Source: Methanothrix soehngenii GP6 (GTDB lineage Archaea; Halobacteriota; Methanosarcinia; Methanotrichales; Methanotrichaceae). Taken from it: a stretch of 64,000 nucleotides of DNA. Shown here piece by piece: positions 1-13,480 of the stretch (positions are counted from its first letter, which is position 1; each line of letters starts with the position of its first letter). A program made the position numbers and the translations under genes. Where the stretch lies: the NCBI RefSeq assembly GCF_000204415.1, contig NC_015416.1, forward strand, positions 1,426,001 to 1,490,000. The letters are read 5' to 3'. Under the pieces are notes generated by a model. It was not told the DNA's origin. It did no database searches and saw only the letters and a program-made list of their open reading frames with translations.

Positions 1-395
1 CCACTCTCCTTTATCCTGGCGGCTGCATCTTTTATCTGGGATTCGTTCAACCGGTCGATCTCCTTGCCCCGGAAGTCTATGGCCCCATCAAGAATGATGG
101 ACTGGCCCAGGTTGTAGTCCTGAGGATTGGTCCCCGGACCCGGTATCAGCACCAGGGCCACAGGATCCGTCTTCTTCTCGGCAATCATATTTGTGATCAG
201 AGTGGTGCTTAAAACCACCCTCTCGATCTTGCTGACGTCCACTCCTCTGACCAGCTCATCCAGAGCCCCCAGCAAGCATCCCAGCAGATCATTGTGATCC
301 GTAGGCACATAGGCCGTCTTCTCCACCCGGCTGCCATCCACCAAAACAGCATCAGTGGTGGTTCCGCCGACATCTATTCCAATAAGCATTTTCAT
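1..395 (-). CDS. Hydantoinase/oxoprolinase family protein, N-terminal part (runs off the left edge)
   Basis: About 130 residues are visible, from the start codon to the window edge. The N-terminus MLIGIDVGGTTTDAVLV is the ASKHA-type phosphate-binding loop of hydantoinase A/oxoprolinase proteins. A later stretch (LSTTLITNMIAE) also fits the family. These proteins couple ATP hydrolysis to opening of cyclic amides; the substrate cannot be told here. Two in-frame ATGs (395 and 389) are possible; the first overlaps the stop codon of the upstream MFS gene by 4 nt (ATGA), so the two are probably co-transcribed. Confidence 0.85.
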   Translation of the reverse strand, partial: MKMLIGIDVGGTTTDAVLVDGSRVEKTAYVPTDHNDLLGCLLGALDELVRGVDVSKIERVVLSTTLITNMIAEKKTDPVALVLIPGPGTNPQDYNLGQSIILDGAIDFRGKEIDRLNESQIKDAAARIKES

Positions 396-1162
396 TCGCC
401 TTTCGATAGGCGCTCTGGATCAGGATATATATCGGCTTTGTGGTCTTTTGGAGGATATATGAAAGAGGGCTTTGCTAAACCATAGAGGCATAGGCCGAAA
501 TTGTGCCGACCCTTCCCGTGGAGGAGGTCTGAAAGCTTTCGGATGGAGTTGCCGCCGCCCCAGCAAATAGAGGGCACGAGCATTGCCATTATCCTCCTCC
601 AGCCATTCTTATAATCCAGGTAAAACAGGGCTATGCAACCCAACAGGCATAGAACTCCCGCCAGGATGAAAGTAGCAGAAAAGCCAACAAAGCTGGCCAC
701 GGCTGCACCCAACGCCCCGGTTGCTGCCGTGCCCAGGCCGGTAGCGGTTGAGTATACTGACCACTGAAAGCTCTCCTGTCCCTTATCGAGATTTGCAGAC
801 CACAAACCAAGCCAGGTTGGATAGGCGAGTCCGCTTCCCAATCCATAAATAACCTCTGCGATATAAATATGATATATGCTGCTGGCAGAGACATAGATGA
901 GGGGGACACCAGCCATGAGAATCGTCCCCACGAACAGCCACTTCGTCTTATCAGACTGCCTGTCCACATAATGGCCAAAGGGGAGTTGCACCAGGGACTT
1001 GGTGAATAGGAAGAGAGCACTGGCAAGTCCCGCGGAAAGCATGCTGCCTCCAGCTACACCGCCACCATTAATATAAATGGCAATTATGGGCTGAATCAGT
1101 CCAAATCCGGTGAGGACGAATATATCCGACAGCATAAGCAGTTTCATGGTGCGGTTCATCAT
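392..1162 (-). CDS. MFS-type transporter, half-size or C-terminally truncated
   Basis: 256 codons. Residues 1 to about 185 have the pattern of an MFS N-terminal half: around six hydrophobic helices and the cytoplasmic loop between helices 2 and 3 (FGHYVDRQSDKTKW). The last 70 residues are polar and do not form a second six-helix bundle, whereas normal MFS carriers have 12 helices in about 400 residues. It is either a half-carrier that dimerises or a decayed gene that lost its C-terminal half. The stop overlaps the hydantoinase start. The substrate is unknown. Confidence 0.6.
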   Translation of the reverse strand: MMNRTMKLLMLSDIFVLTGFGLIQPIIAIYINGGGVAGGSMLSAGLASALFLFTKSLVQLPFGHYVDRQSDKTKWLFVGTILMAGVPLIYVSASSIYHIYIAEVIYGLGSGLAYPTWLGLWSANLDKGQESFQWSVYSTATGLGTAATGALGAAVASFVGFSATFILAGVLCLLGCIALFYLDYKNGWRRIMAMLVPSICWGGGNSIRKLSDLLHGKGRHNFGLCLYGLAKPSFIYPPKDHKADIYPDPERLSKGE

Positions 1163-1540
1163 AACGAATCACCTCCGATCCGTAATTTCAATCATTTATT
1201 AATTATTAAACAAGATAAAAATACAATAGCATCATCCGGCCATTGCACTAACGAAATATTCTCCGCCCTCCTATCGACATCCTACGCGATAATCAGACCA
1301 AGGAAGCTCTTGGCAGAGCTAGAATAGAAGGATGTTATATCAATATGGACTTAAAATTCAGACGATAGATATCCATATTCTGAATCATCAATGTTTTTCA
1401 GCATGAAGTCTTATATAAATATTGCTAAGCATAGCTAAGTGGAATATGCCGATCTATTTCATCATGCCATCAGAGTCATGCGATTCATATATGGCCATTT
1501 TGCCGGGAGCGAGGGATAGGCCAAAAGGCTTCAGTCCCAT
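1163..1540. other. AT-rich intergenic region with an orphan box A
   Basis: No credible gene is visible in these 378 nt. Positions 1411-1423 (ttatataaatatt) make a strong archaeal TATA box on either strand but lie far from both flanking starts. An imperfect inverted repeat (atatgga...tccatat) lies around 1342-1379. The part next to 1162 should hold the promoter of the MFS/hydantoinase pair. Confidence 0.4.
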
Positions 1541-1774
1541 CTAATCCAGCGCACCAATGAGCGGCTTTATCTCATAGACATCCAGCTGCCTTTGAATGGT
1601 AAACAGCTGATTGCCCATCTGATGGCTCTTGAGAAGGGAGTTCCCCACGTCCTTTGGCAGATAAAACTCCTCTTCCCCGAGCTTCACCCGGAAGAACTTC
1701 CTGCTCTCGCCCAGCTCCATGCCGCTATATCTGCCTGTGACCTTCTCGCCGACCTTAAGAATTCGAGGCTCCAT
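1541..1774 (-). CDS. Small hypothetical protein
   Basis: 77 residues, no family recognised. The protein is mixed alpha/beta with no membrane segment or Cys cluster. Coding is supported by a good Shine-Dalgarno (GAGGTGA) about 7 nt before the ATG and by protein-like composition. The 100-residue ORF on the other strand (1592-1894) is treated as its shadow. Confidence 0.55.
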   Translation of the reverse strand: MEPRILKVGEKVTGRYSGMELGESRKFFRVKLGEEEFYLPKDVGNSLLKSHQMGNQLFTIQRQLDVYEIKPLIGALD

Positions 1775-1995
1775 AGAGTTTCACCTCATTTATTGTTATA
1801 TTTGTATCTTGCTACTACTTCTATCTTCCGATCGGAGGCTGAAGACAAGCTTTTTAAACCAGGCAGCAATACGCTGTCAAAAAATGTGCATTAAGGTACA
1901 AAATTGGAGAATGACATAGACATGAATTCGATATGGAGGGACACAGATCAGCCATTTCTCCTGCTCTGTGATCGACTACTTCAGGGTGAGAAAAA

Positions 1996-2091
1996 ATGAG
2001 CATGCCCACCCCCTACATTGCGCTACTGATCGCTCTTATAGTTATGATATCCACAACTATATTTATATTAATGAGGAAATACCATGATTAA
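1996..2091 (+). CDS. 31-residue single-helix membrane protein upstream of the symporter
   Basis: A short ORF (starts MSMPTPYIALLIAL, ends RKYHD) with one strongly hydrophobic helix at residues 8-25 and a basic C-terminal end. The SD GGGTGAG (1984-1990) lies 5 nt before the ATG. The stop codon (2089-2091) overlaps the start of the symporter gene (2084) by 8 nt, so the two are translationally coupled. Several sodium:solute symporters have a small membrane companion gene just upstream; by position and topology this could be such a subunit. That role is inference; the coding call rests on the SD and overlap. Confidence 0.55.
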   Translation: MSMPTPYIALLIALIVMISTTIFILMRKYHD

Positions 2092-3496
2092 TCAATTGCT
2101 GCTGTTGGCCTACGTCCTGGCGATAATCCTGCTCTCACTTAAGCTGCGACAGGGGACATTCTCAGGCTTTGTCCTCTCCAACCGCAACATCGCCTATCCT
2201 GCCGTCATCGGCATTGCCTATACTGCTGCCTACTTCAGCGCAGCCTCCTTCCTGGGAGGAGGCGGTTACGGACTTGCCGCCGGCATGCCCTGGGTGATCT
2301 TCTGCTCCCTATTTCATGTCGGATTCGCCTGCATCGCCTGGATCATGGCAGGGAGGATATGGACCATGGCAAAGCAGTACGATGCCAAGACGGTTCCCCA
2401 GCTGCTGGAGAGAAGATACAACTCTCCCCTGGGAAAGGTCATACTTGCTATCATCATGCTCATCCTCTATACCGTATACCTGGTCCCCATCTTCAAAGGA
2501 TGCGCTACCCTATTTCAGGGAATGATTGGCGTATCCTACCTGGAGGGTCTATTGATCACCGTAGCCATAGTGGCCATTTACTACGCCATCGGCGGGCTGC
2601 CGGCGATAATCTGGGTGGGATTCATCCAGGGCGTATTGATGCTGATAGGGGCCGTCTTCCTCTACGGCGGCCTGATCTCCGCTGGCGGCGGACTGGATAT
2701 CTGGGAGAGAATTCCCCTTGATGTGCTCAGCATGAATGGCCTTAATATCCCCTGGCAGCAGACATTTGGACAGGCCTTCTCCATCAGTCTGGGACTGCTC
2801 GCCCTTCCCGATCTGCTGATTATGATATTCTCCGCCCGGGACAAGAGGGTCGTTCGCTTCGCGGGCATTTACGGACCCATCTCCATCGCCATCTATTCAG
2901 TATGCATCTTCTCCCTGGGAATCCTGGCCTATGGAGCATTGAGCGCCGAGCAGATAGCTCCATTCCTCAAGAATCCCGACGGCCTGGTGCCATTCGTCGC
3001 CACACTGATCCTGCCCAAGGGCTTTGACGGGATCATCCTGTTGGCAGCCATATCTGCAGCCATGTCCACTATGAGCGCCATTGTGCTGGTCACTGCAACC
3101 TCCCTCACCTCGGACATCCTGCGCTATCTGAATCCAGGAATTGCCGACCGGAAGGTTCTCCTACTCACCCGCATGATTGGGGTGGCTATACTGATCATCG
3201 CCGCCGTCTCGGCGATCAATGTGCCACAACAGATCGTGCCCCTGGTGGCGGTCAGCATGGGTATCATCGCCTGCTGCGTCCTGGTGCCACTGTTCTTGGG
3301 CATCTTCTGGCAGAGGGGCAATGAGACCGGCTTCATTGCCAGCCTGCTTGCCTCCTTCCTCTCGGTGGTGGTCTGGTACTTCTACGGCTACCCCCTCATC
3401 CACCCCGTATTTGTAGGGCTGATCTGCGGAACGGCAGCATATCTCATCGGCAGCCTGGCGACGAGCCGGCCGGAAGGGGTGAAGACCACAGGTTAG
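2084..3496 (+). CDS. Sodium:solute symporter (SSS/SLC5 family)
   Basis: 470 residues, almost entirely hydrophobic, with 12-13 predicted helices. The early segment (LSNRNIAYPAVIGIAYTAAYFSAASFLGGGGYG, residues about 31-63) and ARDKRVVRFAGIYGPI are typical of the SSS family, which moves small organic solutes with sodium. The length is normal and no extra domain is attached, unlike the second SSS protein at 5759. The substrate cannot be assigned: pantothenate, acetate, proline and other types look alike at this level. It overlaps the 31-residue ORF upstream; a T-run at about 3552 may end the transcript. Confidence 0.85.
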   Translation: MINQLLLLAYVLAIILLSLKLRQGTFSGFVLSNRNIAYPAVIGIAYTAAYFSAASFLGGGGYGLAAGMPWVIFCSLFHVGFACIAWIMAGRIWTMAKQYDAKTVPQLLERRYNSPLGKVILAIIMLILYTVYLVPIFKGCATLFQGMIGVSYLEGLLITVAIVAIYYAIGGLPAIIWVGFIQGVLMLIGAVFLYGGLISAGGGLDIWERIPLDVLSMNGLNIPWQQTFGQAFSISLGLLALPDLLIMIFSARDKRVVRFAGIYGPISIAIYSVCIFSLGILAYGALSAEQIAPFLKNPDGLVPFVATLILPKGFDGIILLAAISAAMSTMSAIVLVTATSLTSDILRYLNPGIADRKVLLLTRMIGVAILIIAAVSAINVPQQIVPLVAVSMGIIACCVLVPLFLGIFWQRGNETGFIASLLASFLSVVVWYFYGYPLIHPVFVGLICGTAAYLIGSLATSRPEGVKTTG

Positions 3497-3664
3497 ATAT
3501 AAAACAGCTAATAGGAGGATGATCAGCCCCGTTCTTCCGCCTATTTTGCCAATTTTTTTGCCGAATACCATTGAATTATGGACTGAATGGAAGATCAATT
3601 GGCAGTGATCAGGCAGCTGCTCGCCACCTCATTGAGGAGACAGGGGAAAGCACTTTTGGATTAA

Positions 3665-3673
3665 ATTAATATA
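3665..3673 (+). promoter_or_regulatory. Box A of the MC1 gene
   Basis: The sequence attaatata lies about 43-50 nt before the TTG start at 3716, followed by an SD (caggaggga) at about 3702-3710. This spacing fits a short 5' leader. Confidence 0.5.
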
Positions 3674-3715
3674 CCGAATCAGAGAGGCATATCATAACCA
3701 TCAGGAGGGAAAAAT

Positions 3716-3982
3716 TTGGCTGAAATGAGAAACTTTGCCCTGAGGGACGCCCAGGGAAATGAGATTGGAGTCTTCACAGGAAAATCGCCCAGGCAAGCGG
3801 CACTGAAAGCCGCCAACCGCGGCTACACAGAGATTAAGTTGCGTGAGCGTGGCACCAAGAAGGTACACATCTTCTCAGGAGAGAGGGTGCAGGTAGACAA
3901 GCCTGCGGGAGCACCTGCCTGGATGCCGGATAAAATATGGAAGCCAAAGGTGAAGAAAGAGGGCATCGAGAAGCTGGATTAG
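3716..3982 (+). CDS. Chromosomal protein MC1
   Basis: 88 residues, basic. It matches the MC1 family of abundant monomeric DNA-bending proteins of Methanosarcinales (residues 5-40, RNFALRDAQGNE ... RQAALKAANRG, are diagnostic). MC1 compacts DNA and bends it sharply. The start is TTG: the SD GGAGGGA sits 6 nt upstream and the protein begins MAEMRNF; the first ATG at 3725 would remove the first residues of the fold. The protein looks intact, and the N-terminal half closely resembles the Methanothrix version as I remember it. Confidence 0.95.
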   Translation: MAEMRNFALRDAQGNEIGVFTGKSPRQAALKAANRGYTEIKLRERGTKKVHIFSGERVQVDKPAGAPAWMPDKIWKPKVKKEGIEKLD

Positions 3983-4145
3983 GTCTAAGCCATATCAGGA
4001 GCCTCAGGCAAAGGAGCGCAGCCCTCTTATCGGGTCTGCGCCGCATCCTTGCCTCTAAAACAAAAATGGCATAAATATTTATTTTATAAGAATGGGGATG
4101 AATTGAGCTTACGCTACTATAATCCCTCTCCATTCCAGGAATATC

Positions 4146-5450
4146 CTAAGGCACAAGGCGCCTTCGATCTCTGGGAAAGATCACCGCATCACGAATGTTC
4201 TCCAGATTGAGCATGGTCATCACCAGGCGGGACAGCCCCAGACCCCAACCAGCATGAGGGGGCATTCCATAGCGAAAAGCCCGAAGATAGAATTCAAAGC
4301 CATCAGGATCCAGCCCCTTCTCCTTTATCCTCTCCACCAGCAGGCTGTAGTCGTGCACCCTCTGCGCCCCGCTGGCCAGCTCCATCCTCGGGTGCATGAG
4401 ATCGAATCCCCGGCAGATCTCAGGCTTATCCTCATAAGGCAGAGTATAGTAGGGCTTGATTGATGATGGCCAATCTATCAGGAAGTAATGCTCTCCAATG
4501 CTCTCTCCTAAGAATCTCTCCGTCTCTGTATCCAGGTCGTCGCCCCATTGCATCCTGGCCCCAGCCTTCTCTTCCGCCAGCTCCAGAGCACGGGTGTAGG
4601 TGATCCTCTTGAAGGGAAGCCGGGGCACCTCCAGCTCCATATTCAAGACCTCCAGCTGGCGGCGGCAGTTATCAGCCACATAGCTATATGCCCCGGCCAC
4701 CGCCTCCTCCAGGATCTCCATTACATCCTTGTCATCGGCAAAGCTCACCTCCAGATCTATGGAGATGGCCTCATTCAGATGGCGCCTGGTATCATGCTCC
4801 TCCGCCCGGAATATGGGACCGATCTCATAAACACGGTCCATGCCCGCTCCCATCAGCATCTGTTTGTAGAGCTGCGGGCTCTGGTTCAAGAAGGCCTCCT
4901 TCTCAAAGTAGCTGATGGGAAAGAGATCTGTCCCTCCCTCTGTGGCTGCGGCCACGATCTTGGGGGTGAAGACCTCAACTATCCCCTTCTTATGGAAATA
5001 GTCCCTGAGACTGCAAAGGACTGCGCTCTCGATCTCGAATGCGGCCAGGACGCAGGGCCGGCGGATGTCCATGAACCTGGAGTCAAGGCGGGTGTCAAGC
5101 TCGCACTCCACCTTCTCCGTGGGATCCAAAGGAAGAGGCACCTGGGCGGCGCTCAAAACCTGAATCTCCGTGGGAAGGATCTCATATCCTCGCGGAGCCT
5201 TGGCCTCCGCCTTAACATTCCCCCGGACCATAACCACGCTCTCCCGGCTGATGGAGCGCGCCATCTTGAAAACATCCTTTCCCAGGAGCTTCTTGACCAG
5301 AGTTATCTGAGCCATTCCCTCTCTGTCCCTGAGCACCAGGAAAGCTATGCCCCCCAGGTCCCTGATCTCATGGGCGAAGCCCGCCAGCATGACCTCTTTT
5401 CCGTCCATATCCGCAGATATTTGGCCTGAATAATGAGTTCTGAGGATCAA
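4146..5450 (-). CDS. aspS: Aspartyl-tRNA synthetase, archaeal type
   Basis: 434 residues, normal for the archaeal class IIb enzyme: N-terminal OB-fold anticodon domain (1-105), then the catalytic core with motif 2 ([14 protein letters not shown]) and motif 3 ([11 protein letters not shown] near the end). It lacks the insertion domain of bacterial AspRS. His27 ([11 protein letters not shown]) lies where non-discriminating archaeal enzymes carry His and discriminating ones Trp, so it may also charge tRNA-Asn for amidotransferase conversion; that is inference from one site. It is monocistronic and divergent from the symporter-like genes at 5556. Confidence 0.95.
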
Positions 5451-5555
5451 TTCATCTCACGGCTGCGAGAATGAATTCCTGATATAAAAGCAGTCTGATC
5501 TACATGCAGTAGATATATCTGCTAAGGGGATTATAACCTATCCGGGTTTATAGCC

Positions 5556-5762
5556 ATGGCCTCACTCCACGACCTCCTGAGCCAGAAGGATTTCTGGATT
5601 TTGCTCTTCTTCTTAGGATGGGTGCTGCTCAACTGGCCTATGCTTTCCTTGGCCGATGCCATAATTCTGCTGGGCATGCCTGCGATACTCGTCTATATAT
5701 CTGCAGTCTGGATGATACTCATTCTCCTGATGTACCTCTTTGACCGGGGGAATTCTGGTTGA
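5556..5762 (+). CDS. Small two-helix membrane protein partnered with the SSS-DUF835 protein
   Basis: 68 residues with hydrophobic helices at about 13-32 and 35-63 and a short polar N-terminus. It overlaps the next gene by 4 nt, so it is translationally coupled. Its position matches the small subunit genes that precede some SSS transporters, and the same arrangement occurs at 1996/2084. The likely role is an accessory subunit of the receptor-like symporter downstream; there is no recognisable catalytic motif. Confidence 0.65.
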   Translation: MASLHDLLSQKDFWILLFFLGWVLLNWPMLSLADAIILLGMPAILVYISAVWMILILLMYLFDRGNSG

Positions 5763-8700
5763 TAGGCCAGAATACCGCTCTTGTGGTTATGGTGCTCTAT
5801 CTGCTCCTTCTTTTCGCAATAGCTAGGTTCTCAGATAATAGAAAGCTAGAGGGCAAGAGCATCGTCAGCAATCCCTATGTCTATGCCCTCTCCCTATCCG
5901 TATATGTCTCAGCATGGACCTTTTACGGCTCCATAGGAAGAGCAGCATCTACCGGCCTGGAATTTTTGCCTATATATTTAGGGCCCGTCCTGGCTATGAC
6001 ATTGGGCTGGGTGCTCATCAGAAAGATGGTTCGCGTATCCAAGGAGTACCGCCTCACCTCCATCAGCGATTTCTTGAGCTTTCGCTACGGCAGGAGCTAT
6101 GCCATCGGCGCAGTGGTTGCTCTGCTCAGCCTGGTCATGGTAACCCCTTATGTGGCTTTGCAGCTGATAGCCATCTCCACCTCATTAGAGACTCTGGCCG
6201 AATCCCATACCCTCCTGAGCTTCTCCTGGGAGAGCACCCTGGTGGTGGCCCTCCTCCTGGGCATATTCGCCATGATCTTCGGCGCCCGCCAGCTAGACCC
6301 CATGGAGCGGCATGAGGGGCTGATTGCTGTGGTGGCCTTCGAATCCCTGGTGAAGCTGGTGGCTTTTCTGATGATAGGGCTATTCGTTGCCTATGGAATC
6401 TTTGGAGGCTATGGGGATATCTTCAGCCAGATGGCTGAACAGGCTCGTAGTAATCCGAATTATTCCAACCTCATGGACGTGGAGTATCCTCTTTGGTTCT
6501 CCCTGACCCTCGTGTCCTTTTTTGCCATATTATTCTTGCCCAGACAGTTTCATGTCATGGTTGTGGAGAACTCAGAAGTGGGCCATCTGAAAAAGGCGAT
6601 GTGGCTCTTCCCCCTCTACCTCCTGCTGATCAACCTTTTCGTTCCGGCCATCGCCTGGGGCGGGTTGCTCCTCAATACCCCCGGCCTCAAGGACTCCTTC
6701 ATAATAACCATACCTTATAGCCACAATCAAGACCTTCTATCTCTTTTGGTCTTCATAGGAGGGACATCGGCAGCCACTGCCATGATCCTAGTCGAGTCCG
6801 TGGCCGTCGGCACGATGCTGCTCAACGACCTGGAGCTCCCCTATATTCTGCGCCATATTAAAAAGCAGAAGAACCTGGCCGATGCACTCCTCAACACCAG
6901 AAGGCTGAATATACTCCTGGTTGTCCTATTAGGATACCTCTTCTCCCATGTTGCTGCCTATCAGATACTGGCAGATATCGGAATCGTCTCATTTCTCGCT
7001 GCCAGTCAGCTGGCGCCAGCTGCTCTCGGAGGCCTTTATTGGAGAGGAGGAAACCGAAAAGGAGCTATGGCAGGTCTCGTTTCAGGATTTCTGCTCTGGT
7101 CCTACACCGCCTTGATACCCACCATGGCCGGGGACGATGGCATGCTCTCAAGCCTGGTTAGAGATGGAGCCTTCGGCCTGTCTTTCCTCAGACCCACAGA
7201 CCTATTCGGCCTCGGCCTTGACCAGTGGACCAACTCCGTATTCTGGACGCTGCTGGTCAACACCAGCCTTTACATCCTCGTATCCCTTCTCACTAAGCCC
7301 AGTCTCGAGGAGGAAAGCATCGCTAAATCATTCATATACGGTGCAGAAAAAGCGATGGCACAGGGCGAGGAGCTGCCAGTTGAGCCCCGAGCTATGCTTT
7401 ATGGGACAATAAGCGAGATCGAGACGACCCTTGCAAAGTATATAGGAGAGGAAAGAGCAAATCGTCAGGTCGATCTATATCTGAGGCAACTGGGAGCGAC
7501 CAGAGAGACGGTTAGCCCCAGGCAACTTCAGGAGCTTTGGAACCAGTTCGAAAAGACCCTCACCGGGTCAGTAGGACCTTCTGCCACCAGAATGATTGTA
7601 GAGGAACAGGTTCCCGTTAAGCCAGTGGTGGAAGAGAAGAAGGAGACCCTTCCCACCTATGATCTGACGAGGGGAAGGATATACATAGTGCCTGATATCG
7701 CTTATGAGGTCTTCACCGACCAGATCACCCACGGTGTAGAAGGGCTGTGTATCACCCACTCCTCCCCGGAGGAGGTCAGGCTCCGCTGGGGATTCAAGGA
7801 GACGCCCATCATCAAGCTGAGCGACGAGAAGAGAAGCGATCGATACATCTCACCCCGAAATCTGCCCCTCCTATTCATAACCATAAAATCGTTCGTCGAC
7901 TCCAGCAGAAACAGCATTGTGCTCATCGACAGCATAGAAAAGCTGGTGAATGAGAACATGTTCAAGGTTCCAGAGAGGGAGATGCTGGACTTCGTCTATC
8001 AGATGGAGCTGCTGGGAAAAAGGACTCATCTGATCCTGGCTGAGGGAGAGGATTTCGTCCATATGGAACTGAATTCCAGCGTCAATGAGGCAAAGGAGCT
8101 ATTGTTCACCCTGGGTCCCCTCTCAGAGTACCTCTTTCGGCTCTTCTCAGATACGATGCTCTCCGCACTGAATGAAGGGGTGAGAAGAGAGGTGGTCATG
8201 AAAGCCAATGAACTTATTGCAGCAGGCGGATTCTTTGAGGTGGCTCCAAAGAGAGATCGGCCCTCTGACGAAGCCGGGCCGGCCTGCGAGCCAGATATGC
8301 AGGATGCTCTGACCGCCATTCCCAGTTTGAATATCAGACCAGGACTGGTTCTGACCAGGCATAGCTTTTTCCTCGCTTTAAGGAGGCTGGACAGAATCAT
8401 CAGAACATTTGATCCCACCTTCGATATCAAGGATACATTGGCTGAGATCATGAAGAGCTATGGAAGGAGCCCATTTGAGGTATCGCTTATCCCAGGGACC
8501 ACGTATATCGTAGAGGAGGAGAAGCCCAAAAAGAGCCTGGAGGTATTCAGCGAGCTGGTAGCTCATGGAATGGAAGGGTTATGCCTCAGCCGACACAATC
8601 CCGAGACTCTGCAAGAGAGATTCAGCATACCTCCGGAGACTGTGATATGGCTGACTCAAAAGAGCGAACCAGGATACAGAACGGTGGACCCCACGAACTT

Positions 8701-8944
8701 TCCCAGGTTGAGCGGCATGATCTCCGAATTCCTCGACCAGGCCAACTATCCAATCATCCTCCTGGAAGGCATGGGCTACCTGATCACCCAGAGCAACTAT
8801 GAGACTGTGCTCCGGTTCGTTCAATTCCAGAGAGATGAGATTGCCATGAAGAACGCAATAATGCTGATCCACATTGATCCGTTATCCTTGGATACAAAAG
8901 AGCTCCACCGTCTGGCAAGCGAGATGGAGCCGTTCAGAGGCTGA
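5759..8944 (+). CDS. SLC5-type sensor/transporter fused to a STAC-like linker and two DUF835 domains
   Basis: 1061 residues. Residues 1 to about 520 form an SSS membrane module of the kind found in CbrA-type sensor kinases (SAWTFYGSIGRAA, LPIYLGPVLA, SISDFLSFRYG, PYVALQLIA). Residues about 555-620 (YIGEERANRQVDLYLRQLG ... LTGSVGPSATRMIVEE) match the STAC linker found between SSS and signalling domains. Two cytoplasmic DUF835-type domains follow: about 640-800 (GLCITHSSPEEVRLRWG ... ILIDSIEKL pattern) and about 905-1055 (GLCLSRHNPETLQERF ... VIWLT ... IILLEGMGYLI). There is no His-kinase, PAS or ATPase motif. It probably senses a solute while binding or transporting it and signals through the DUF835 domains, whose partner is unknown. 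Confidence 0.85.
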   Translation: MIGQNTALVVMVLYLLLLFAIARFSDNRKLEGKSIVSNPYVYALSLSVYVSAWTFYGSIGRAASTGLEFLPIYLGPVLAMTLGWVLIRKMVRVSKEYRLTSISDFLSFRYGRSYAIGAVVALLSLVMVTPYVALQLIAISTSLETLAESHTLLSFSWESTLVVALLLGIFAMIFGARQLDPMERHEGLIAVVAFESLVKLVAFLMIGLFVAYGIFGGYGDIFSQMAEQARSNPNYSNLMDVEYPLWFSLTLVSFFAILFLPRQFHVMVVENSEVGHLKKAMWLFPLYLLLINLFVPAIAWGGLLLNTPGLKDSFIITIPYSHNQDLLSLLVFIGGTSAATAMILVESVAVGTMLLNDLELPYILRHIKKQKNLADALLNTRRLNILLVVLLGYLFSHVAAYQILADIGIVSFLAASQLAPAALGGLYWRGGNRKGAMAGLVSGFLLWSYTALIPTMAGDDGMLSSLVRDGAFGLSFLRPTDLFGLGLDQWTNSVFWTLLVNTSLYILVSLLTKPSLEEESIAKSFIYGAEKAMAQGEELPVEPRAMLYGTISEIETTLAKYIGEERANRQVDLYLRQLGATRETVSPRQLQELWNQFEKTLTGSVGPSATRMIVEEQVPVKPVVEEKKETLPTYDLTRGRIYIVPDIAYEVFTDQITHGVEGLCITHSSPEEVRLRWGFKETPIIKLSDEKRSDRYISPRNLPLLFITIKSFVDSSRNSIVLIDSIEKLVNENMFKVPEREMLDFVYQMELLGKRTHLILAEGEDFVHMELNSSVNEAKELLFTLGPLSEYLFRLFSDTMLSALNEGVRREVVMKANELIAAGGFFEVAPKRDRPSDEAGPACEPDMQDALTAIPSLNIRPGLVLTRHSFFLALRRLDRIIRTFDPTFDIKDTLAEIMKSYGRSPFEVSLIPGTTYIVEEEKPKKSLEVFSELVAHGMEGLCLSRHNPETLQERFSIPPETVIWLTQKSEPGYRTVDPTNFPRLSGMISEFLDQANYPIILLEGMGYLITQSNYETVLRFVQFQRDEIAMKNAIMLIHIDPLSLDTKELHRLASEMEPFRG

Positions 8945-8986
8945 TTAGGAGAATTTTTAATAGCTAGACTACCCTAATATACAGCT

Positions 8987-9229
8987 ATGATCGAAGTTGG
9001 AATAGTCTTGCTGGCGGTCGTTCTCATATTCGGAGCCTTTCTTTTGCTGAGGTCCCTTAAAAATTTCGTCATAAACGCAATCGCCGGCCTCTTTATTCTT
9101 TTCCTGGCCAATCAGTTCATCAGCGCGGATATCGGCTATAGCTGGCTGGTCATACTGATTTGCGGAATCGGCGGGGCAGTTGGAGCAATCCTCTTGTTAG
9201 CCCTTCATTTCATAGGATTAGGCATCTAG
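8987..9229 (+). CDS. BofA-like membrane protein
   Basis: 80 residues with three hydrophobic segments. The middle and end (NAIAGLFILFLANQF, then GIGGAVGAILLLAL) follow the pattern of the pro-sigma-K processing inhibitor BofA family, which is widespread in archaea that do not sporulate; its archaeal function is unknown. It lies 42 nt after the SSS-DUF835 gene on the same strand and may share its transcript. Confidence 0.7.
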   Translation: MIEVGIVLLAVVLIFGAFLLLRSLKNFVINAIAGLFILFLANQFISADIGYSWLVILICGIGGAVGAILLLALHFIGLGI

Positions 9230-9368
9230 AATAGAGAGTGCCCTGAGAGGTGAACAAAGCATATTGGCCCAATCGAGATGAGAGGCATCAGGAACCGGAT
9301 GAACGGAGATAGGAAAGCCATAGAAGGAGATTCAATCAGATAAATAAAAATGTATATTGGGAAATATA

Positions 9369-10598
9369 TCAGAGCCCCAAACGAGCTTGCTGGGGGACAG
9401 TGACATTGGTCAGATCCTTCAGCCGGTAATCCTGTTGCAGTATTGACTTGAGCTTGCCGGAGTACACACTCAATGTTATCTCTTTGGTCCGGCCATATCT
9501 GCCCTTACTGATCACAATGGTATGCAAGATGCCAAGCATATCCAGCTCCGCAATGAGATCTGTGATCCGGCGATGGGTGAGAAAATCGGTCTCTACCAGA
9601 GGACAGAGCTGTTTGTACATATTGTAGACCGCACTAGTAGTGATGTTTCTCGTTCCTTGCTCCTCTAAGAGAATGATGCTATAGAGCACTAGCTTAGATT
9701 GGGTGGGCAGGGTCTTGATGACTTCTTCTACCCGATCCTGCTCTATCTTATCTCTGGCCTGGCGGACATGAACCTCCGTGACCACAGTAGATCGGGCCCT
9801 TTCCGCCAGCTCTCCAGAGATGCGCAAGAGGTCAAGGGCTCGGCGGGCGTCTCCATGCTCTTGAGCTGCGAATGCCGCGCAAAGAGGTATTACGCTCTCC
9901 TGCAAGGATCCGGAACAGAATGCGACATTGGCCCTCTGTTCCAGGATCTCTCTTATCTGCTCAGCATCGTAGGGCGGAAAGATGATCTCGTCCTCACCAA
10001 GAGAGCTCTTCACCCTGGGATCAAGAAACTCTGTGAACTTGAGGTCATTGGATATGCCGATGATACTCACCCGCGATCGGAGGAGGTCGGAGTTTACCCG
10101 GGAGAGGTTATAGAGAACATCGTCTCCCTTTCGCACCAATTTATCCACCTCGTCCAGCATTATCACTACAACTTGCTTCTCCTCATCTAGGGCATTCCTA
10201 AACTCTGCATAAACCTGGTCTGTGGGCCAACCGGTCATCGGAATATCTCTGTCGAAGTGCCTTGCCAGGTGGGCCAGAATCCTGTACTGGGTATCGACTA
10301 CCTCGCAGTTGATGTAGATCACAACGCACTTCATATCTTCAAAGCTGGCCTCTTCCAGTTCTTTTCCCACATATTTGGCCACCGCTGTCTTTCCGGTGCC
10401 AGTCTTTCCGTATATGAGGACATTAGAGGGCGTCTCACCTCTCAGAGCTGGGACCAGAATCGATGCAAGGTTATTGATCTGCTCTTCTCTGTGAGGCAGT
10501 TTGGATGGTGTATATGTAGGACGCAGGATGTCTCTGGATTGAAATATCTCCCCTTGCGCCAATAAATCAGCAAATAACCCTCTGGATATAGGTACCAA
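9369..10598 (-). CDS. cdc6: Orc1/Cdc6 replication initiator
   Basis: 409 residues. AAA+ ATPase with Walker A GKTGTGKT (64-71), Walker B LDEVD (148-152), sensor 1 around IGISND, and a C-terminal winged helix (about 300-400). It binds origin recognition boxes and loads MCM. It is transcribed away from the AT-rich region that begins at 10599, which contains ORB-like sites; this initiator-next-to-origin arrangement is common in archaea. The length and motifs look intact. Confidence 0.95.
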   Translation of the reverse strand: MVPISRGLFADLLAQGEIFQSRDILRPTYTPSKLPHREEQINNLASILVPALRGETPSNVLIYGKTGTGKTAVAKYVGKELEEASFEDMKCVVIYINCEVVDTQYRILAHLARHFDRDIPMTGWPTDQVYAEFRNALDEEKQVVVIMLDEVDKLVRKGDDVLYNLSRVNSDLLRSRVSIIGISNDLKFTEFLDPRVKSSLGEDEIIFPPYDAEQIREILEQRANVAFCSGSLQESVIPLCAAFAAQEHGDARRALDLLRISGELAERARSTVVTEVHVRQARDKIEQDRVEEVIKTLPTQSKLVLYSIILLEEQGTRNITTSAVYNMYKQLCPLVETDFLTHRRITDLIAELDMLGILHTIVISKGRYGRTKEITLSVYSGKLKSILQQDYRLKDLTNVTVPQQARLGL

Positions 10599-10654
10599 GA
10601 TAATTCCCCTTGAACATTTTAAAATCGTCCTGGTGGATATTAAGAGTTATGGTT

Positions 10655-10681
10655 AACTCCCCTTCATTTCCTCTGGAAATA
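10655..10681 (-). promoter_or_regulatory. ORB-like element 1
   Basis: On the minus strand the core TTTCCAGAGGAAA (10667-10679) is followed by TGAAGGGGAGTT. This fits the archaeal ORB layout of a short dyad (TTCCANNGGAAA) followed on one side by a G-run. Confidence 0.7.
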
Positions 10682-10688
10682 TTGGCCT

Positions 10689-10714
10689 CCTACCCCATGA
10701 TTTCCTCTGGAAAA
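10689..10714 (-). promoter_or_regulatory. ORB-like element 2
   Basis: Minus-strand core TTTCCAGAGGAAA (10701-10713) is followed by TCATGGGGTAGG. The orientation is the same as element 1 and the dyads are 34 bp apart (about three helical turns). Confidence 0.7.
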
Positions 10715-11297
10715 GAGATAAAACTCCAGCGAATACCCTGATAGATAATAAAATAAAACTAGCTATTTCTAGGTTCTCTTTTATTCATATATATATCTTC
10801 CTCTCTACAGAGAAAGAGACTATGTTTTAATCTATGCAGATAAACATCTTAAATCTATAGCTAAATGATACGTAACCACATAAAAAAGCTGCAATTTAAG
10901 TAAGTAGTTACTGAGAATATCGATTATATTCTTCGCGATACGGATGATAGTTCAATAGTTTTTGTCGACTGTTAGTAACAGGATCAATAAACGCTAATGA
11001 AACCAGAATCCGTAGCTAGCGTCTTCATCGCAATTTCAGATCACGTCCAGTTGAATGCAAGCGCTAAACCGATGAAATTGAACCTTGATATCTCAAGAGC
11101 ATCACCACGAAGGATTTACAGCTATTGCCATCGGATGGAAGATATTTGAATAGCAGGAACTGAAGCATAGAGAATGCCGACAAAAAAATGGATGGAGCCC
11201 AAGATGACCTCAGTGAATGCAGGATCGAAGAGTCAAACTCATCCTGCATATCCAACCAAGAACGATTAGCGGAGGGACAGAGGTCACATAGGCTTGA

Positions 11298-11311
11298 GTT
11301 CCAGTGGAAAC
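11298..11311 (+). promoter_or_regulatory. ORB-like dyad (element 3, G-run weak)
   Basis: GTTCCAGTGGAAAC is the perfect core dyad of the canonical archaeal ORB, but the following sequence (catacggtccc) has no clear G-run, so it may be a mini-ORB. Confidence 0.45.
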
Positions 11312-11371
11312 CATACGGTCCCTCTCATAGGCCGTGGAAAGCTGCTTGGCTATCTGGTCCAAAAGAGGGAT

Positions 11372-11632
11372 TTAGCTGACTGGTATGGTCTCAAGCTGGC
11401 TAGCAACATTCCAGATCAGGGTTCTGGTATGAAGTGGAATATTAGGGTCATTGCTTATCTCATCGAGTATGGAAATGGCAGATGCGGCCTTTATCGCCTC
11501 GTTTACGCTCTCGTCCATGAGGATGGTCTTGACGCTCTCTGCAGAGCGCCTGATATTCCTCGGGACTGCATCATCGCTCATAATACGTTCTAATACCTCA
11601 ACACATTGCTTAAGGACATTTTCAGCTGTCAT
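11372..11632 (-). CDS. UPF0147 family protein
   Basis: About 86 residues, helical throughout. The pattern [21 protein letters not shown] ... [23 protein letters not shown] fits the archaeal UPF0147 family, whose function is unknown. The ATG at 11632 follows a GGTGG SD; an upstream in-frame start at 11647 would add five residues. It lies inside the candidate origin, divergent from the zinc-ribbon gene at 11744. Confidence 0.85.
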
Positions 11633-11743
11633 AGAACCACCACCCATATCTATGGGAAAAAGGTTATGATGTTTATCTGCCTTTGATTCAAGGATGATAT
11701 ATCGTTGTATTTAAACGTATGTGGTAATGCTGGTGATGGGACG

Positions 11744-12214
11744 ATGGAAGAAGATGAAGTACTCAGCAAGATAACCAGGCTTCTTGAGAGGGGATGCACA
11801 ATGCTGGCTACGCACCATGACTGCGGAGCGCCCCTATTTCGCTGTCAGGGAGAGATAGTCTGCCCGGTCTGTTCATTTCAGGATGAGCAGGTCCATGGTG
11901 AGCAGCTTTCCGGAGCTGGAAGAGAGGCTCCGGAGCCTTCGGGATCAGAAGAGGATCGGCCGGATCACGAGCCCGGTATGCCTCTCTTGCAGGCGGCAGG
12001 GAAGAGTTTGCCTGGCGGAACGAGGAGTACGGGCCCCTTTGATGAGGAGAGGATGGATGGCGGGCTTATGGAGGCGAAGGCTGGGCTGCGCGCATCATTG
12101 ATCGCGCGGCTGGACGAGCTCTCTGCAGGCATAAGATCTGAGCAGGATCTGGATAGGCTGAAAAAGATGCTGGACTGTGCAGAAGGACTGCTGCGTGTGC
12201 TCCGATCGATGTGA
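11744..12214 (+). CDS. Zinc-ribbon protein of the Sjogren/scleroderma autoantigen p27 family
   Basis: 156 residues. The N-terminus (residues 1-45) carries a helix and a C-x4-C ... C-x2-C zinc ribbon (HHDCGAPLFRC ... IVCPVCSF), the layout of archaeal homologues of autoantigen p27. The remainder is a polar, low-complexity linker and a C-terminal helix. Family function is not established. The ATG at 11744 was chosen because the family begins about ten residues before the first helix. It lies between the inverted ORBs. Confidence 0.7.
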   Translation: MEEDEVLSKITRLLERGCTMLATHHDCGAPLFRCQGEIVCPVCSFQDEQVHGEQLSGAGREAPEPSGSEEDRPDHEPGMPLLQAAGKSLPGGTRSTGPFDEERMDGGLMEAKAGLRASLIARLDELSAGIRSEQDLDRLKKMLDCAEGLLRVLRSM

Positions 12215-12332
12215 ATAGAATCAAGCTCTTTTTTCGAAGGCAATGCAGCTTCCTGTGAGGATCAAATGGCCCTCTGCTCAAGATTGCCTTGCTCGGGCCA
12301 GTTTCATAAGGCGCGCATTTCAGGGCTTCTGC

Positions 12333-12357
12333 TTTCCACTGGAAATCAAGGGGTTGG
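12333..12357 (+). promoter_or_regulatory. ORB-like element 4, inverted relative to elements 1 and 2
   Basis: The plus-strand core TTTCCACTGGAAA (12333-12345) is followed by TCAAGGGGTTGG. The dyad, spacing and G-run match elements 1 and 2 but point the opposite way. The G-run lies 8 nt before the TTG proposed as start of the lipoprotein gene and could also serve as its ribosome binding site. Confidence 0.65.
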
Positions 12358-12361
12358 TCAA

Positions 12362-13480
12362 TTGTGTTTGAAAAAGTTTAGAGAGTGTGGTATAGCTCCG
12401 ATATTATTTCCCCTTATACTGGTATTATCGTCCATCACTGGCTGCATCGAATTGGGATCCCAACCACAGCATGCCTCATCCGCTGGCGGTGCAGCTCAGC
12501 AGTCAGAGGCGTGGTCGGGTCAGCTGAAAATGGAGATAGACCCCAATCTGGATATCGATCTCTTCAGCCTGCGGGGAAATGTCGTTCTCACCGGGAATGG
12601 CACTCTACCTTATCTATTGCTCAATGCCACCCTCCGCCAGGGGAAGGCCTCAATCTCAAGCACCAAGTACCTGCTGATGAGGCTGGAGACGAACAGGGAT
12701 TACAGCTTCGAGATCGCCAAGAACCTCGAACTACTTCCCGGCAACTACACCTGCACCCTGGAGGCATCAGGCCCTGGCGGCATTCTGGCCAGCGAGAACA
12801 GAAGGTGCAGCCTGGCTGAGGATCAGGAGGATCTGATCTCTAAAAGGATCTCCTCTGGGGAATTGATATCGATCTCTGATGCTCGTGCCCTTTATGCCGG
12901 CAGATCTCTCTATAGATATGAGTCAAATGAGGATGAAGAAGAGCCAGAGGAGGATGCAGGGAGAGAGGGCGAGAAAGAGAGAAAAATCGAGCGTGTCGAG
13001 AGTACGAAAGCTCGTGCTCTGATATCGTCAGGAGAAGGGCTAACCACCAAGCTTCAGGCTCCAGAAGAGGCCGAGCAAGAGGATTCGAAGGAATCAAAGG
13101 CAGAGATATCGGCAGAAGGAGAAGACTCCAGGTCAGAGGATGAGAATGAGGCCGATGATCGCGTCGCAGATGAATTTGATGCATCAGTTGGTTCAGGCGA
13201 AGATGGAGATGGTGCAGGGGATCCTGAGCTTTTTGATGGTAGCGCCGGCGCCGATGCCGATGGTGGCGAAGCATCAGTCAGCAGCGTTGTGGTCATGGAT
13301 GAATCAGATGGAAAGAAGGAGTCAGAAGGGAATTTCGTAGGCAGCAGCACCTCTAAGAAGTACCATCTCCCTGACTGCCGCTATGCCTTGAAGATCAAGC
13401 AGGAGAACAAGGTCTATTTCCAGAGCGCCGAGGAGGCAAAAAGCCAGGGATATCTTCCCTGCAAGAGCTGCCATCCCTGA
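12362..13480 (+). CDS. Acidic secreted lipoprotein with a C-terminal Ada-like Cys domain
   Basis: 372 residues from the TTG at 12362. Residues 1-28 are a signal peptide ending in a lipobox-like SSITGC. A beta-rich region follows (about 45-170), then a long Glu/Asp/Ser-rich low-complexity stretch (about 190-320), then a 50-residue C-terminal domain (VGSSTSKKYHLPDCRYA ... GYLPCKSCHP) resembling the small metal-binding domain related to Ada and found on some nuclease-like secreted proteins. The ORF is open from 12266, but an earlier start would not give a signal peptide. It is probably anchored on the cell surface; function unknown. Confidence 0.7.
   Translation: MCLKKFRECGIAPILFPLILVLSSITGCIELGSQPQHASSAGGAAQQSEAWSGQLKMEIDPNLDIDLFSLRGNVVLTGNGTLPYLLLNATLRQGKASISSTKYLLMRLETNRDYSFEIAKNLELLPGNYTCTLEASGPGGILASENRRCSLAEDQEDLISKRISSGELISISDARALYAGRSLYRYESNEDEEEPEEDAGREGEKERKIERVESTKARALISSGEGLTTKLQAPEEAEQEDSKESKAEISAEGEDSRSEDENEADDRVADEFDASVGSGEDGDGAGDPELFDGSAGADADGGEASVSSVVVMDESDGKKESEGNFVGSSTSKKYHLPDCRYALKIKQENKVYFQSAEEAKSQGYLPCKSCHP

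Follow-up and report, generated by a model that had tools for sequence, protein, structure and literature searches.

A CbrA-like SLC5-STAC module joined to two DUF835 domains in the methanogenic family Methanotrichaceae

The archaeal family of Methanothrix comprises acetate-using methanogens that are major producers of methane. Here, we examine a stretch of 64,000 nucleotides, henceforth termed the window, from Methanothrix soehngenii GP6 (positions 1426001-1490000 in a genome of 3,026,645 bases on two contigs). Near its beginning lies a gene whose product joins an SLC5 transporter-fold domain and a STAC linker to two DUF835 domains. The original prediction, made from the letters alone, described this product as a solute sensor or regulated transporter that signals through DUF835 instead of a kinase and is preceded by a coupled two-helix gene. 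The two genes and the features of the larger one are as follows.

5556..5762, plus strand: small two-helix membrane protein, 68 aa, a CbrX-like partner with conserved NWP and FDR motifs (open reading frame, hydropathy)
5759..8944, plus strand: SLC5-STAC-DUF835-DUF835 protein, 1061 aa, TTG start
5774..7294, plus strand: SLC5 transporter-fold domain, approximately residues 6-512 (phmmer to 10ed_A)
6353-6355, plus strand: codon of K199, which corresponds to the Na2-site lysine K196 of CbrA (alignment to CbrA numbering)
7391..7603, plus strand: STAC four-helix linker domain, approximately residues 545-615, boundaries approximate (unbroken alignment with the STAC portion of 10ed_A)
7700..7966, plus strand: first DUF835 domain, residues 648-736, partial or divergent (Pfam, 54.5 bits, cut-off 33.1)
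8519..8926, plus strand: second DUF835 domain, residues 921-1056 (Pfam, 138.7 bits, cut-off 33.1)

Residues 8-621 of the 1061-aa protein align end to end with the SLC5-STAC chain of PDB entry 10ed_A (phmmer, E=3.1e-85), presumably the CbrXA SLC5-STAC construct of PMC13022988. Pfam contributes an SSF/SLC5 match (PF00474) of 31.1 bits, above the gathering threshold of 22.8, and two stretches of DUF835 (PF05763) with 184.9 bits combined, each above threshold, the first covering only model positions 8-95 of 136. Since STAC has no match in Pfam or NCBIfam, we assign this domain from the continuity of the 10ed_A alignment. Hydropathy yields 12 clear transmembrane segments and a broken TM2, all before residue 513, so that the protein has the arrangement by which the SLC5-STAC transceptors CbrA, CrbS and RpuS are grouped, an SLC5 domain of 13 transmembrane helices joined to STAC. 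HisKA, HATPase and REC gave no Pfam match at E<=10, no PAS domain was found in Pfam, and the place of these domains is taken by DUF835; the protein is therefore not an SLC5-STAC histidine kinase. A cognate response regulator was likewise not seen, as the genes examined from 392 to 13480 include no REC protein. The predicted CbrA-type module and the replacement of a kinase by two DUF835 domains are thus both confirmed, with the difference that of the three domains expected from Pfam over residues 1-1061, SSF and DUF835 were recovered and STAC emerged only from the alignment with 10ed_A.

The 68-aa frame has two transmembrane segments by hydropathy and overlaps the start of the SLC5 gene by 4 nt (TTGA). 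A corresponding gene is present at 40/40 family loci, with an overlap of 4 nt in 36 of the 40 and of 1 nt in one, while the junction reads CTGA in three. The overlap of cbrX with cbrA in Pseudomonas is 17 nt, and the two genes are coupled in translation (PMC6591292); CbrX itself is a helical hairpin that lies against TM3 and TM8 of the SLC5 domain, beneath which STAC is docked (PMC13022988). A hidden Markov model of the archaeal small proteins matches small open reading frames that precede SLC5-STAC genes in Cupriavidus (5e-13), Azoarcus (8e-10) and Paracoccus (4e-6), compared with 0.08 for the best of 900 shuffled sequences; a PDB search with the small-protein profile returned no CbrX chain. 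By position and predicted topology, the Methanothrix gene is the counterpart of cbrX, and at the sequence level it is homologous to the Paracoccus, Cupriavidus and Azoarcus partners. The coupled gene ahead of the sensor was hence predicted correctly, but it is not a peculiarity of this locus.

To which organisms does this architecture belong? A search of 200 genomes of the class, in which genomes without a match are not all listed, found the fusion in all 50 listed genomes of Methanotrichaceae. Forty-five of them encode one full-length relative each, free of stops, and the other five hold fragments that were apparently cut by contig ends. The idea that the fusion might occur in a single assembly thereby fails. 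Outside the family, the class search returned only DUF835-alone or SSF-alone matches. When 393 genomes of the phylum Halobacteriota were searched with residues 1-620, no SLC5-STAC relative appeared beyond the family, the remaining matches being weak and resembling ordinary symporters; a single-sequence contig search reached two close relatives only. Bacterial SLC5-STAC modules, in contrast, were found in 63 records of a plasmid collection, mostly from Pseudomonadota and with 34-44% identity. In a maximum-likelihood tree with these bacteria, a split with support 100 separates all archaeal sequences from the bacterial ones. The simplest reading is that an ancestor of the Methanotrichaceae gained the module once from bacteria and that vertical descent followed, in which case the transfer would have run from bacteria to archaea. 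PMC5715377, citing Korycinski 2015, reports SLC5-STAC signalling proteins as absent from archaea, and a 2021 review noted SSS domains in some putative archaeal kinases (PMC7918813).

In the CbrA structure, lysine K196 occupies the Na2 site, and the SLC5 domain of CbrA transports histidine (PMC13022988). The equivalent K199 is invariant in 41/41 family members, in 6/6 bacterial proteins and in every bacterial homologue compared. Counterparts of the CbrA pocket residues Y51, W55, F71, Y75 and F406 are likewise invariant across the 41 family members, and S53 corresponds to S or T. Two positions depart from CbrA: A56 is replaced by T in 36/41 members (A in 5), and F248 by S in 41/41, so that the ligand need not be histidine. 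By analogy with CbrA, the conserved residues predict a sodium-independent fold with a pocket for a small solute. Methanothrix lives on acetate, and acetate would be an attractive candidate ligand because CrbS serves growth on this very substrate. CrbS is required for growth on acetate and RpuS for growth on pyruvate (PMC9100948).

At the output end, conservation within the protein peaks in the second DUF835 domain, where 35% of positions are invariant among 41 members; SLC5 reaches 25% and the first DUF835 domain 14%. DUF835 has been listed as an inactivated KaiC-like domain that occurs in REC-DUF835 and REC-PAS-PAS-DUF835 proteins (PMC5847659). A profile-profile comparison of DUF835 with KaiC (hhalign) aligned 130 columns with E=1.5e-4 and a probability of 51%, and the best PDB match of DUF835 was FlaH (E=0.019). 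The Walker A motif GxxxxGK[ST] is absent from the 1061-aa protein and present in only 1/41 family proteins. Other archaeal DUF835 proteins that we scanned carry the domain behind REC-PAS, PAS/GAF, HisKA-REC or a 7TM histidine-kinase receptor region, so a membrane sensor with DUF835 in the place of a kinase is not without parallel. Two loci (L111:2563-3981 and L114:2187-3581) encode another membrane sensor ending in DUF835, in which a 7TM histidine-kinase receptor region is followed by DUF3795 and DUF835 without a kinase. The genome analyzed here contains no second DUF835 gene elsewhere.

A candidate effector came to light in the relatives, where a PF06745 search first showed KaiC-family genes upstream of the small gene. 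With the copy from locus L033 as query, an intact KaiC-family ATPase gene lies just upstream of the small gene at 25/39 assessable loci (L041, which ends at a contig edge, was left out). Its protein matches the Pfam KaiC ATPase family (E=9e-33) with a largely conserved Walker A, and in most KaiC-positive loci its stop precedes the ATG of the small gene by 2-5 nt. The window retains only the following piece of such a gene.

5491..5553, plus strand: 3' end of a KaiC-family ATPase gene that has otherwise been lost, QSDLHAVDISAKGIITYPGL, a stop after 20 codons (tblastn)

The L033 KaiC protein matches this piece with 65% identity over 20 aa (tblastn, E=0.008). Where the window reads QSDLHAVDISAKGIITYPGL followed by a stop, the intact gene reads KRAVDISVKGIVIYPGL followed by a stop, and the motif, the stop and the 2-nt spacing to the ATG of the small gene are the same as in intact relatives. 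The piece is a 3' fossil that remained after deletion of kaiC. A KaiC ortholog was found neither anywhere in this genome nor in the KaiC-negative genomes tested; the 15 genomes without one, including this one, contain only paralogs of 24-39% identity. As kaiC remnants also persist in L063 (clear) and in L036 and L048 (shorter), the loss probably happened more than once.

The association with KaiC extends beyond this gene family. KaiC genes occur in the fetched flanks of 28/39 DUF835 loci from other archaeal genes (three of these loci are duplicates) and at 0/16 symporter control loci. The predicted signalling through DUF835 can be sharpened on this basis, together with the listing of DUF835 as inactivated KaiC, toward KaiC-type ATPases, a link that the original prediction could not see because this genome has lost its kaiC copy. 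Separately, Methanotrichaceae and a sister family have another DUF835-KaiC module that lacks a membrane sensor, in which short DUF835 proteins (~215-275 aa) are followed by a KaiC-family gene (L119:2391-4260, L121, L122, L128, L129). Regulatory roles of KaiC-like proteins are already known in archaea, one example being CirA of Haloferax (PMC13286277).

Downstream of the sensor gene, after a gap of 42 nt, begins a further small gene that probably belongs to the same operon.

8987..9229, plus strand: BofA-family small membrane protein (PF07441, E=9e-9)

A BofA-family gene is next downstream in 31/38 loci with enough flank; one genus lacks it entirely, as do some other loci. A further SSF transporter gene is situated nearby at 2084-3496 (Pfam). 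Elsewhere in the vicinity, an MFS-type open reading frame of 256 aa (392-1162) matches only positions 3-182 of 347 of the MFS_1 model and is possibly truncated or decaying, and the protein encoded at 12266-13480 combines a long, acidic stretch of low complexity with an Ada-type metal-binding domain at its C-terminus.

Taken together, it appears that a nutrient sensor of the bacterial CbrA kind now feeds into an archaeal signalling pathway. We consider it somewhat more probable than not that the Methanotrichaceae ancestor acquired a CbrA-like transceptor once and that this was rewired to inactive-KaiC domains acting on KaiC-type ATPases. A small solute would bind to, or pass through, the SLC5 fold, which is probably Na+-independent given the lysine in its Na2 site. 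The CbrX-like hairpin would pack on the SLC5 domain and may aid dimerisation, and STAC, docked under the transporter, would relay the conformational change. The two DUF835 domains, as inactive KaiC-like folds, may then dock or regulate a KaiC-family ATPase rather than phosphorylate a response regulator; the most likely effector would be such an ATPase, which many relatives encode just upstream. The full chain, in which SLC5 occupancy is read by STAC and passed via two inactive KaiC-like domains to a KaiC-type ATPase, would give acetate-using methanogens a means of nutrient sensing without a phosphorelay; we put this forward tentatively, at a little under even chances. If it holds, the repeated loss of the dedicated ATPase means that the sensor can re-plug into other KaiC hubs.

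Several observations weigh against this proposal. Its main weakness is that the KaiC gene is absent in 14/39 assessable relatives and in this genome. We considered whether kaiC loss relaxes DUF835 and rejected this, as the domains are equally conserved whether or not kaiC is adjacent. For both reasons, an obligate partnership with the adjacent KaiC can be ruled out. With the dedicated kaiC of this genome deleted, a paralogous KaiC or another protein must, going by gene content, serve as partner here, and DUF835 would act on that protein, perhaps the paralog. The homology signal between DUF835 and KaiC is weak in our analysis, and hhalign of DUF835 against one single KaiC sequence gave no match. 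AlphaFold2 models of the C-terminal half and of the full protein, run with three-row alignments, were rejected because their confidence was too low (mean pLDDT 45 and 42), and we count this against the proposal as well. In Pseudomonas, deletion of CbrX (PMC13022988) or of STAC (PMC5715377) had little effect on growth; deletion of STAC lowered crcZ expression in P. putida (PMC7918813).

Among the alternatives, a regulated transporter fares best, at roughly one chance in four by our estimate expressed loosely. The SLC5 domain would be a working H+-coupled importer and the DUF835 half a gating cytoplasmic tail set by KaiC or another protein, with information flowing inward to the transporter. Histidine transport by CbrA, the conserved pocket residues and K199, and the second SSF gene nearby are all in line with this view. 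However, the closest SLC5-STAC relatives carry signalling outputs (kinase, GGDEF-EAL), archaeal DUF835 is C-terminal on sensor modules such as REC-PAS and 7TM receptors, and a CbrA/CrbS chimera signals without need of transport (PMC5715377). Less probable still is a different docking partner for DUF835 (a transcription factor, an archaeal kinase or the BofA-like protein), with KaiC as a dispensable modulator. Repeated kaiC loss under continued DUF835 conservation and the frequent downstream BofA-like gene would fit, but the general DUF835-KaiC neighbourhood in other families and the patchy occurrence of BofA speak against it. That the fusion is a misassembly or frameshift artefact, or a relic in a mis-joined or decaying gene, has the decayed upstream kaiC as the sole point in its favour and is ruled out by 45 full-length, stop-free frames in independent genomes and by the second DUF835 being the best conserved part of the protein.

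Kinase-free outputs of SLC5-STAC modules are already known in bacteria, as in the Azoarcus GGDEF-EAL protein and the GGDEF outputs mentioned in PMC5715377. New are the use of DUF835 as output, the conservation of the protein in a family of archaea, the CbrX-like partner kept alongside it and the KaiC genes nearby. We found no description of an SLC5-STAC-DUF835 fusion in the literature searched, which excluded Makarova 2017 and the primary STAC paper and in which only PMC5847659 names DUF835. An SLC5-STAC signalling protein has thus been kept throughout a family of archaeal methane producers with its partner gene, its kinase swapped for an archaeal output, which supports the idea (PMC5847659) that bacterial sensors become attached to a KaiC-based network in archaea. 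The protein also provides a concrete sensor-output pair for probing the role of DUF835, a domain of unknown function, and the occurrence of one sensor type with kinase, GGDEF-EAL and DUF835 outputs offers a handle on what STAC transmits.

Compared with known systems, the Methanothrix protein shares with CbrA/CbrX of Pseudomonas (SLC5-STAC-PAS-histidine kinase) the order of SLC5 and STAC, the K196-type lysine and a small two-helix gene overlapping upstream. It differs in that two DUF835 domains stand where CbrA has PAS, DHp and CA, in the pocket positions A56 and F248, and in an overlap of 4 rather than 17 nt. The highest-scoring bacterial relatives, from Paracoccus, Cupriavidus and Azoarcus (41-44% identity), share the homologous small upstream gene and S at CbrA position 248, whereas their outputs are HisKA-HATPase (Paracoccus, Cupriavidus) or GGDEF-EAL (Azoarcus). 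The expectation that STAC leads to PAS and histidine kinase domains in bacteria therefore applies to many proteins but not to all, and the Azoarcus relatives indicate that the wider SLC5-STAC family tolerates non-kinase outputs. The kinase-free protein of this kind in Azoarcus sp. KH32C is plasmid-borne and has its own small upstream gene (L105:5950-9138). The Paracoccus operons (L103:4293-11055, L197:3221-10121) encode, in overlapping reading frames, a nucleotidyltransferase-like protein, a small two-helix protein, the SLC5-STAC kinase, a single-domain response regulator and an exonuclease-domain protein. The hybrid kinases CrbS/MxtR (acetate) and RpuS (pyruvate) have the same SLC5-STAC sensor module and differ in their PAS-HisKA-HATPase-REC output. 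A homologue on the NGR234 megaplasmid, presumably RpuS, is 36% identical to the Methanothrix module, and CbrA position 248 is A in RpuS and in a CrbS-like Acinetobacter protein, versus S in the archaeal family. Archaeal REC-PAS-, PAS/GAF-, HisKA-REC- and 7TM-DUF835 proteins resemble the Methanothrix protein in carrying DUF835 C-terminal to a sensor, often with an adjoining KaiC gene, but their sensors are REC, PAS, GAF or 7TM and those scanned have one DUF835 stretch. Finally, the stand-alone protein Af1502 also represents STAC in archaea, although it is not fused to SLC5 and adjoins Af1503-type receptors (PMC4834066).

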